Assembly (NCBI RefSeq): GCF_003096995.1
Contig: NZ_QENU01000001.1
Location: forward strand, 1-64,000
Source of the DNA: Alitibacter langaaensis DSM 22999
Lineage (GTDB): Bacteria; Pseudomonadota; Gammaproteobacteria; Enterobacterales; Pasteurellaceae
DNA length: 64,000 bases
Reading direction: 5' to 3'
Below, piece by piece: positions 2 through 6,700 of this stretch (positions within the stretch are counted from its first letter, which is position 1; each line of letters begins with the position of its first letter). The position numbers and the translations under genes are program-made. The notes under the pieces were generated by a model. It had not been told where the DNA came from, did not search any database, and saw only the letters and a program-made list of their open reading frames with translations.

Positions 2-76
2 GAATGTGAATTTCGGTTTAACTTTGGAACACCCAAAATGCAGCTAAAAACATTGCGAAAATGGTGTGAAATTTAG
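2..76 (+). pseudogene. 3' end of an IS1595-family (IS1016-like) transposase, cut by window edge
   Basis: The first 75 bases encode a 24-residue tail that begins ECEFRFNFGTPK and ends LRKWCEI before a TAG stop. An ECEFRFN-type motif near the C-terminus followed by a short basic tail is what I know from ISXO2-like (IS1595/IS1016) transposases of Pasteurellaceae and Neisseriaceae. The rest of the gene lies before the window, so I cannot tell whether the element is intact. The stop is followed at once by a GC-rich terminal repeat. The family call rests on this short tail and on the repeat, so it is good but not certain. Confidence 0.65.
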
Positions 77-96
77 GGCTAATCTACGTCAGCCCC
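76..96. repeat. Terminal inverted repeat (right end) of the IS element
   Basis: Read on the minus strand this stretch begins GGGGCTGACGTAG and continues ATTAGCCC. A GGG(G)CTG tip is typical of IS1595-family inverted repeats. It separates transposase sequence on one side from permease coding sequence on the other, so position 96 or 97 is the probable insertion junction. The partner repeat and the target duplication (8 bp in this family) lie outside the window. Confidence 0.6.
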
Positions 97-815
97 AAAA
101 TAAAAATTAAACGCGTGCGGGTCAAATTTATGCCTAAGGCTTGTGCTTCTTCATCATCAAGGCTTAACACATTCATACGCCAGCGTAATAAAATTAAAGG
201 TAACATCGCGATTAGCACTAAGGGGGCGACAAATTTTAAATCCTCAAAAGATGTCATATTTAGCCCGCCTAATAACCAAAAAGTAATGGTGCTTAATTGA
301 CTGTAAGGATCTGCAAGAATTTTAAGCAAGGAAATGCCCGCACCGAGTAAAGTAGAAATGGCGACACCAGATAACACCAAGGCAAGAATGGGATTTTGAC
401 GGCGTACTGTGCTGGCAATAAAATAGACCAAACTCACCGCAGTTAAACCTCCAATAAAAGCGAAACATTGAATTAACATTAAAGGAAAATCAAAATAAAT
501 GGCAACCACTGCGCCTAATCCTGCACCTGCAGTTACGCCTAAAATATCAGGAGAAACGAGAGGATTTTTAAACATGCCTTGATAGGTTACGCCAGCGGTG
601 GATAATGCAATTCCCACCAAAATTGCGGTGGCAATACGGGGAAGTCGAATATTCCACAACACGATATCAGAGGAAGTCATATTGCTTCCCCAATGCCAAA
701 GCGTATCCCAAATTTGTGTAATGGATAGCGAAAACTGCCCTGAACTTACCGCAAATAGAATACTGACAATCAATAAAATAAGAGGGAATAGTAAACGCAA
801 AATAAACCTCTTCAC
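84..815 (-). pseudogene. FecCD-family ABC transporter permease, truncated by IS insertion
   Basis: The 243-residue product has the hydrophobic N-terminus and the WNIRLPRIATAILVG and SPDILGVTAGAGLGA blocks of the BtuC/FecCD permease family, which import metal chelates, vitamin B12 or, in Haemophilus MolB, molybdate/tungstate. Family members are about 320-350 residues with about ten helices. This one stops after the seventh or so, at ...RLIFIL plus GLT and a TAG that come from the IS end itself. The conserved C-terminal part that contacts the ATPase is missing, so transport by this copy should be lost. It lies 8 bp downstream of its binding-protein gene. The ATPase gene is not visible. Confidence 0.8.
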
Positions 816-3791: not shown

Positions 3792-6700
3792 ATGGGTTAC
3801 TCCTATACTGAGAAAAAACGTATTCGTAAAGACTTCGGCAAACGTCCGCAAGTTTTAAATGTACCTTATTTATTAACCATTCAGTTAGATTCTTTTGACA
3901 AATTTATTCAACGTGATCCTGACGGTCAGCAAGGTTTAGAAGCTGCATTCCGTTCTGTGTTTCCAATTGTTAGCAACAATGGTTCAACAGAATTGCAATA
4001 TGTTAGCTATAAACTTGGTGAACCTGTGTTTGATGTGCGTGAATGTCAAATTCGCGGCACAACATTTGCTGCGCCATTACGTGTGAAATTACGTTTGGTG
4101 AGCTATGACAGAGATGCTGCACCAGGCACAATTAAAGATATTAAAGAACAAGATGTTTACATGGGCGAAATCCCATTAATGACAGAAAATGGTACCTTTG
4201 TGATTAACGGTACAGAGCGTGTTATCGTATCGCAATTACATCGCAGCCCTGGTGTGTTCTTTGATTCAGATAAAGGTAAAACACATTCATCGGGTAAAGT
4301 GCTTTATAACGCACGTATTATTCCTTACCGTGGTTCTTGGTTAGATTTTGAATTTGACCCGAAAGACAATTTATTTGCGCGTATTGACCGTCGTCGTAAA
4401 TTGCCAGCAACCATTATTTTGCGTGCTTTAAATTACAGCACAGAAGAAATCTTGGATTTATTCTTTGATAAAGTTGTTTTCGAGCTCAAAGATAACAAAC
4501 TTTTAATGGAACTTGTGCCTGAACGTTTACGTGGCGAAACTGCAACTTTTGATATTGAAGCAAATGGTAAAGTTTATGTAGAACGTGGTCGCCGTATTAC
4601 AGCGCGCCATATTCGTGCCTTAGAAAAAGATAAAGTATCACAAGTTGAAGTGCCGACTGAATATATCATTGGCAAAGTTGCAGCGAAAGATTATGTGGAT
4701 TTAGAAACGGGTGAAGTGGTTTGCCCTGCAAATATGGAACTCTCTTTAGAGTTATTAGCTAAGTTGGCTCAGGCAGGTTACACCACCATTGAAACTTTAT
4801 TTACCAATGACTTAGATTTCGGTCCATATATTTCAGAAACCTTACGTGTTGATCCATCTTACGATCGTTTGTCAGCATTAGTTGAAATTTATCGTATGAT
4901 GCGCCCAGGCGAGCCACCAACAAAAGAGGCTGCGGAAGGTTTATTCGATAATTTATTCTTCTCTCAAGAACGCTATGATTTATCTGCGGTAGGTCGTATG
5001 AAATTCAACCGTTCAATCGGCGTTGAAGAAGAAACGGGCAGCGGCGTATTAAGCAAAGAAGATATCGTTAGTGTGATGAAAAAACTTATCGATATCCGTA
5101 ATGGCCGTGGTGAAGTCGATGATATTGACCACTTAGGTAACCGTCGTATTCGTTCTGTTGGTGAAATGGCTGAAAACCAATTCCGTATCGGTTTAGTGCG
5201 TGTTGAACGTGCCGTTAAAGAACGTCTTTCTTTAGGCGATCTTGATGCAGTGACTCCACAGGATCTAATTAATGCAAAACCGATTTCTGCGGCAGTGCGT
5301 GAATTCTTTGGTTCTTCACAATTATCGCAATTTATGGACCAAAATAACCCATTATCAGAAGTGACGCATAAACGTCGTATTTCTGCATTAGGTCCAGGTG
5401 GTTTAACCCGTGAACGAGCAGGCTTTGAAGTGCGTGACGTACATACCACTCACTATGGTCGTGTGTGTCCGATTGAAACCCCTGAAGGTCCAAACATCGG
5501 TTTGATTAACTCATTATCTGTCTATGCACGTACTAATGACTATGGTTTCTTAGAAACACCATATCGTAAAGTTGTGGACGGCCAAGTTACAGAAGAAATC
5601 GAGTATTTATCGGCAATTGAAGAAGGTAAATATATTATTGCGCAAGCAAACTCGAACTTAGATGAGAACTTGCGTTTTACCGATACTTTTGTTACTGCGC
5701 GTGGTGAACATGGTGAGTCTGGTTTATATCGTCCAGAAGATATTCATTATATGGACGTTTCCACTCAGCAAGTTGTTTCTGTTGCGGCAGCATTAATCCC
5801 ATTCTTAGAGCATGACGATGCGAACCGTGCATTAATGGGGGCGAACATGCAACGTCAAGCAGTTCCTACATTACGTGCGGATAAACCACTCGTTGGTACA
5901 GGGATGGAAAAACCAATCGCACTTGACTCGGGTGTGGCGGTGATCGCAAAACGTGGCGGTACAATTCAATATGTTGATGCATCTCGTATCGTGGTGAAAG
6001 TCAACGAAGATGAAACGATCCCAGGTGAAGCAGGTATCGACATCTATAATTTAATTAAATATACCCGTTCAAACCAAAATACTTGTATCAACCAAATTCC
6101 TTGCGTGAATTTAGGTGAGCCCGTAGGTCGTGGTGAAATCTTAGCTGATGGTCCATCAACAGATTTAGGTGAATTAGCATTAGGTCAAAATATCCGTGTG
6201 GCATTCATGCCTTGGAATGGTTATAACTTCGAAGACTCAATGTTAGTTTCAGAACGTGTTGTTCAACAAGATCGTTTCACAACTATTCACATTCAAGAGC
6301 TTTCTTGTGTGGCGCGTGATACCAAATTAGGCGCGGAAGAAATTACTGCCGACATTCCTAATGTAGGCGAAGCAGCGTTAAGCAAACTTGATGAATCAGG
6401 TATCGTTTACGTTGGTGCAGAAGTGAAAGGTGGTGATATTCTTGTGGGTAAAGTGACACCAAAAGGTGAAACACAATTAACCCCAGAAGAAAAATTATTA
6501 CGTGCGATCTTCGGGGAAAAAGCGTCAGATGTGAAAGATTCTTCATTGCGCGTGCCAAATGGTACCTCTGGTACGGTTATTGACGTTCAAGTATTTACCC
6601 GTGATGGTGTAGAGAAAGATAAACGTGCGCTTGAAATTGAAGAAATGCAATTAAAACAAGCGAAAAAAGACCTTGTTGAAGAATTAGAAATCTTAGAAGC

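Follow-up and report, generated by a model that had tools for sequence, protein, structure and literature searches.

A permease gene that ends in an insertion sequence

At its left edge, the window (the whole stretch of 64,000 nucleotides from Alitibacter langaaensis DSM 22999 that was analysed) carries the first genes of an ABC transporter operon, which are read on the reverse strand and run into the end of an insertion sequence (IS). The locus raises the question of whether the IS interrupted this operon by simple insertion or marks a place from which part of the operon has been lost. Because window base 1 is also the first base of contig C1, in a genome of 1.99 Mb assembled into 29 contigs, the left flank is not directly readable. 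The features at this edge are as follows.

Positions 1 to 96, + strand: end of an IS1016-like (IS1595-family) element, the 3′ end of its transposase gene, with the coding tail and stop codon at 2-76 (+)
Positions 79 to 96, − strand: 18-base terminal inverted repeat, GGGGCTGACGTAGATTAG, common to both kinds of IS end
Positions 84 to 815, − strand: truncated FecCD-type ABC permease, a frame of 243 codons, native down to base 97
Positions 97 to 104, − strand: 8-mer adjoining the IS, TTTATTTT when read towards it, which differs from the AAACATTA of contig C13
Positions 824 to 1852, − strand: periplasmic binding protein (Peripla_BP_2) in an open frame of 342 aa, the gene that begins the operon

The permease frame comprises 240 native residues and then enters the 18-base terminal repeat of the IS, such that its final three residues and stop codon (G-L-T-stop) derive from GGGGCTGACGTAG, the start of that repeat, exactly as the initial annotation had read them. 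A profile search with Pfam FecCD covers profile positions 1-225 of 311 (E = 2.2e-57). Orthologous permeases, found in 10 cases among 60 other genomes of the family and 54-68% identical to the window permease, occupy open frames of 329-370 aa, as compared with the 243 codons seen here, IS-derived end included, and truncation of the gene by the IS is thereby confirmed. The binding protein is 70% identical to a Lonepinella homologue over 327 aa. As to the earlier claim that the transporter is inactive, the truncation itself is seen, and a loss of transport is what we infer from it.

Ends of an IS1016-like element across the assembly

Bases 2-76 (+) translate to ECEFRFNFGTPKMQLKTLRKWCEI followed by a stop codon, which represents the tail of a transposase. 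A complete copy of the IS is assembled nowhere in this genome, and its family was placed by means of its ends and a copy from Neisseria: the transposase tail, together with the transposase start as read at the end of C13, aligns with the two ends of a Neisseria IS1595-family relic (77% over 96 bases and 68% over 121 bases). This relic is split over two frames, of which the 197-aa frame matches PF12762 and NF033547 above cut-off; the 24 and 33 transposase residues that can be read in the present genome match no HMM on their own. These alignments and the shared 18-base repeats support the identification of the element as IS1016/IS1595-like. A Neisseria gonorrhoeae record (L162:425-1076), labelled a plasmid and, with 2.17 Mb, evidently a chromosome, holds 18 places similar to this IS end. 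Within the genus, the 96-base end is present in one of the six genomes searched, namely this one, and phage records gave no match to it.

With up to two mismatches allowed, a genome-wide search gives 38 occurrences of the repeat GGGGCTGACGTAGATTAG (36 of them exact) and 0 of a reversed-pattern control. All of these occurrences but one (37/38) sit at contig ends, the exception being a two-mismatch match inside C3, and the element is thus a main cause of breaks in the assembly. Its ends take two forms that carry the identical 18-base repeat: A, corresponding to 96 bases of the transposase 3′ end and found at 19 contig ends (18 identical over 96/96 bases and one over 95), and B, corresponding to 140 bases of the transposase 5′ end and found at 18. 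With all copies complete, the assembly would therefore lack one B end.

Intact operons in related genomes

The ten family loci with which the window operon was compared are all of those that contain a permease orthologue; one of them, in genome G001, also belongs to the five congeners considered below. With gene content counted at ≥35% identity, an ATPase gene follows the permease in nine of the ten loci and a methyltransferase gene is present in eight (in two of these at 37-39%), and the four genes, comprising a three-gene ABC transporter and the methyltransferase, run in a single direction in 8/10. A gene for a TonB-dependent receptor lies downstream of the methyltransferase in the same direction in three loci (L106, L113 and L115), preceded by a small gene in L106 and L113 and by none in L115; receptor matches at 31-33% occur in L046, L047 and L110. 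In G001 the genes run binding protein, permease, ATPase, methyltransferase, 163-aa gene, receptor; L143 and L114 have the 163-aa gene in divergent orientation to the binding protein. At L143:9120-9909 (G036), a receptor matches that of G001 only at residues 1-110 and 532-672, its middle seemingly lost.

The probable far side of the element

The right-hand flank of the operon provides an anchor from which its former surroundings can be traced.

Positions 2154 to 2452, no strand assigned: rplJ-side end of a spacer found in congeners (299 nt, 87% to G003)
Positions 2453 to 2944, + strand: the synteny anchor, which we take to be rplJ

The left end of contig C13 is formed by a B-type IS end that abuts a receptor frame; this frame aligns with the G001 receptor from residue 4 through to its C-terminus, at 67% identity, and reads away from the IS in the direction that the operon requires. 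It has lost its start codon, and the first in-frame ATG, GTG or TTG, a GTG at C13 base 218, comes only after about 26 codons, past the likely signal peptide. After the receptor, C13 carries yihI, a 145-aa gene and hemN, where yihI and hemN, as well as rplJ, rplA and rplK, are names that we presume from the translations; of each contig end, no more than the first 3-4 frames of ≥80 aa entered the comparison.

In three of the five congeners (G001, G003 and G005), yihI, the 145-aa gene and hemN lie opposite rplJ, with a spacer of 351-410 bases in between. The neighbours of rplJ in G002 and G004 are instead rplA and rplK, unlike in this genome, G001, G003 and G005, which carry other genes on that side. 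Beyond its resemblance to G003, the window spacer upstream of rplJ matches G001 (289 bases, 82%) and G005 (310 aligned bases, 80%). On C13, a 43-nt stretch preceding yihI corresponds at 79% to the opposite end of the G001 spacer; no match to the spacer of G003 or G005 was reported for it. The ends of one spacer are thus split between C1 (299 nt) and C13 (43 nt), which would place the operon inside it. The orientation of the operon and those of both IS ends agree with a single IS copy between C1 and C13, and joining the two contig ends restores the synteny of the congeners. Most probably, then, these ends were once one site, and what lies beyond the window IS is, again most probably, the C13 left end. 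With the junction through the IS itself unassembled, the C1-IS-C13 join is most probable on grounds of synteny, orientation and homology. Measured on G001, the stretch that is missing extends from about position 5954 to about 8382, or ~2.4 kb.

An IS-bounded deletion as the preferred reading

We propose that an ancestral uptake operon between rplJ and yihI would have encoded the binding protein, FecCD permease, ATPase, methyltransferase and TonB-dependent receptor. The IS, of which the genome has numerous copies, very probably now separates permease codon 240 from receptor residue 4, the DNA between these points having been deleted. By the geometry of the intact G001 operon, the ~2.4 kb lost would comprise the permease C-terminus, the ATPase, the methyltransferase and the start of the receptor. 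Such a deletion could have arisen if two IS copies of like orientation recombined, or if one copy made an adjacent deletion; either route would leave a single IS whose flanking 8-mers differ. The left-over binding protein and truncated permease would be unable to form a transporter, and the receptor would be without a start codon and without the first part of its signal peptide.

The genes predicted to be lost were sought in the assembly using the permease C-terminal end, ATPase and methyltransferase of the Lonepinella operon as queries, and no orthologue of any of the three was found there. The permease end gave five matches at E ≤ 10 (best, 34% identity) and the methyltransferase one (22% identity); among 44 matches to the ATPase, the best-scoring has 30% identity and none exceeds 35% over 200 residues, with short fragment matches reaching 55%. 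It had been expected that the 3′ part of the permease gene and the ATPase gene would be found across the IS; neither was found in the assembly. A plain insertion with the 3′ half of the permease gene beyond the IS was rejected because the assembly yielded no such half.

Another arrangement would have two IS copies, one in the permease gene and one at the receptor start, still flanking the ATPase and methyltransferase genes, the operon being interrupted twice and undeleted and the piece between the copies having been lost from the assembly. A lost piece of this kind would lie between two repeats, and it would suit an assembly in which the IS ends (one diverged repeat excepted) are all at contig ends and B ends are one fewer than A ends. 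However, a piece of ~2 kb should have survived an assembly whose smallest contig is 1,254 bases, and that assembly, scored as 100% complete, is the one that yielded no orthologue of the permease end, ATPase or methyltransferase. We consider this double interruption unlikely and continue with the deletion bounded by one IS.

Flanking 8-mers and target duplications

Elements of the IS1016/IS1595 family create target duplications of 8 bp. Among the 342 combinations of A and B ends, an exact 8-mer is shared in 20, as compared with a mean of 1.3 and a maximum of 8 for letter-shuffled 8-mers, and at most 15 of the 18 B ends can be paired with an A end in this way. The A ends whose 8-mers are unmatched are C5R, C8R and C19R, and the B ends are C3L, C7L and C13L. 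An 8-bp duplication at the window IS, as anticipated earlier, finds no support at the partner end that is best supported: C13 carries AAACATTA and C1 carries TTTATTTT. That the C13 8-mer pairs with no A end, though up to 15 of the 18 B ends can be paired exactly, favours a deletion. The remaining unmatched ends, C5R (L015), C8R (L018), C19R (L035), C3L (L011) and C7L (L016), are candidates for further IS-mediated deletions or inversions.

A simple insertion with an 8-bp target duplication would instead join C1 to the end of C16 that bears thrC, and the permease would have been cut earlier by another event. In its favour, TTTATTTT is identical at the C1 and C16 ends, C16R being the only match to the C1 8-mer. 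However, the same 8-mer is also carried by C26L, so that at least one of C1L and C26L is without a matching partner, and shuffling of letters produces a match of the C1 8-mer to some B end in 12% of trials. This alternative would also leave unexplained the two rplJ-yihI spacer ends and the two operon parts that lie at the IS ends of C1 and C13, and we regard it as highly improbable. The pairing of C1 with C16 by target duplication was set aside once C26 showed the same 8-mer. The neighbour of hflC, against which a C16-C26 pairing can be compared, differs among the four congeners with readable flanks and does not settle that pairing (hflC and thrC are again names that we presume from translations). 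At the end of C16, an IS copy lies directly behind the thrC stop codon (L086:5859-5861), and the thrC frame is intact.

Several observations count against the preferred reading of a deletion between permease and receptor: the C1 8-mer matches C16, with C26 competing; the yihI-side match is short (43 nt at 79%) and confined to G001; the receptor lies downstream of the operon in just 3/10 family loci; and with 19 A ends to 18 B ends, one B end may be unassembled. Even so, the event is probably an ordinary IS-mediated loss of function, with an anatomy that differs from plain insertion. The case suggests that a draft assembly can hide a deletion: taken singly, the contig ends resemble a plain insertion, and it is synteny alone that suggests the loss of the middle of the operon.

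Possible substrates of the operon

The substrate of the operon may be a metal, a molybdenum compound or heme. In 16 of the 18 homologous loci outside this genome (L049 and L050 being left out), we looked for modD within or beside the cluster and found it in four.

L159:8501-9355: modD, directly after the methyltransferase; checked with TIGR01334
L110:3780-4637: modD, directly after the methyltransferase
L048:19-858: modD, before the binding protein
L141:7503-8354: modD, after the permease on the opposite strand; checked with TIGR01334

The modD genes of L110 and L048 were identified by similarity of 45-73%. Against solved structures, the window binding protein scores 105.8 bits with 4pag, 64.3 with 4hn9 and 46.5 with 3psa (residues 183-330), the last of which we take to be MolA (HI1472). 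Among proteins of solved structure, the permease is closest to the molybdate transporter MolB (HI1471), and a Rhizobium locus has an annotated molybdopterin-binding gene nearby. These observations make it possible, and we say so tentatively, that the operon serves molybdenum or a related oxyanion rather than being the heme system that the hip name implies, a reading compatible with the deletion proposed above. It is opposed by the receptors, which score best with models of TonB-dependent heme, hemoglobin or siderophore receptors (all below the curated cut-offs), by the absence of modD from the stretch examined in 12/16 loci, and by a passage of PMC2627913 that cites work for a role of the Haemophilus influenzae type b hip locus in heme transport. 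The initial annotation had entertained a Mol-type system, and this stands as far as the kinship of the permease with MolB is concerned; the binding protein speaks against it, matching MolA only third.

Were the operon a molybdate importer, uptake had been expected to rest on other transporters, and the part of this expectation covered by ModA, the component searched, is supported: ModA, intact and above its curated cut-off, is encoded on C11. Molybdate uptake thus need not suffer. A broader proposal, which we hold to be doubtful, is that in Pasteurellaceae and other proteobacteria the intact operon (a FecCD-type ABC importer and a methyltransferase, in some loci with a TonB-dependent receptor and ModD) would form an active route by which molybdenum, or a chelate of it, passes from the outer membrane to the cytoplasm, and that this route would have been lost here by an IS1016-bounded deletion. 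The portions consulted of PMC3098086 and PMC3928620 do not settle the substrate, and among the papers listed for IS1016 with Aggregatibacter, for modD with TonB and methyltransferase, and for TonB with molybdenum uptake, none describes the operon in its title or the opening of its abstract. Because several intact homologues have modD inside or next to the cluster, the substrate of this poorly characterised operon can be put to a direct test.

Comparison with known systems

In the consulted part of PMC3339403, IS1016 is described as a member of the IS1595 superfamily with a 217-aa transposase and repeats of 18-29 bp. The 18-base terminal repeat of the present element falls within that range, and its exact 8-mer flanks can pair as many as 15/18 B ends. 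An IS1016-involving deletion that truncates a transport gene, as proposed here, is known from the H. influenzae capsule locus, where the 1.2-kb bexA-IS1016 deletion is reported in the portion of PMC6535587 consulted. There the IS is truncated and the locus duplicated, whereas here the operon is cut at two genes and IS ends are found at both cuts.

With respect to MolBCA of H. influenzae (HI1470-1472; PMC4031551, consulted in part), the best relatives of solved structure are HI1471 for the window permease and HI1470 for the G001 ATPase. The binding protein, in contrast, matches MolA third and over its C-terminal half and is not a MolA (HI1472) orthologue, and the intact homologues of the operon have a methyltransferase, and some a TonB receptor, beside the transporter genes. 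MolBCA is a relative of the window operon and not the same system.

The gene content of the operon fits the H. influenzae hip locus, for which the section consulted in PMC2627913 gives hipABC as a probable ABC transporter, hipD as a probable methyltransferase and hipE as a small gene in divergent orientation. According to the same section, type b strains have the whole locus; nontypeable strains show various deletions of it (in part as data not shown there), and in R2866 and Rd KW20 deletions have led to its loss or damage. The likeness is one of gene content and order: a three-gene ABC transporter is accompanied by a methyltransferase in the intact relatives, the 163-aa gene of L143 and L114 is divergent as hipE is, and of these genes the present genome keeps the first and part of the second. 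The hip section of PMC2627913 differs in mentioning no IS. If the operon is indeed hip-like, this would be one more Pasteurellaceae genome with a decayed copy of the locus, in this case with an IS where it breaks off.
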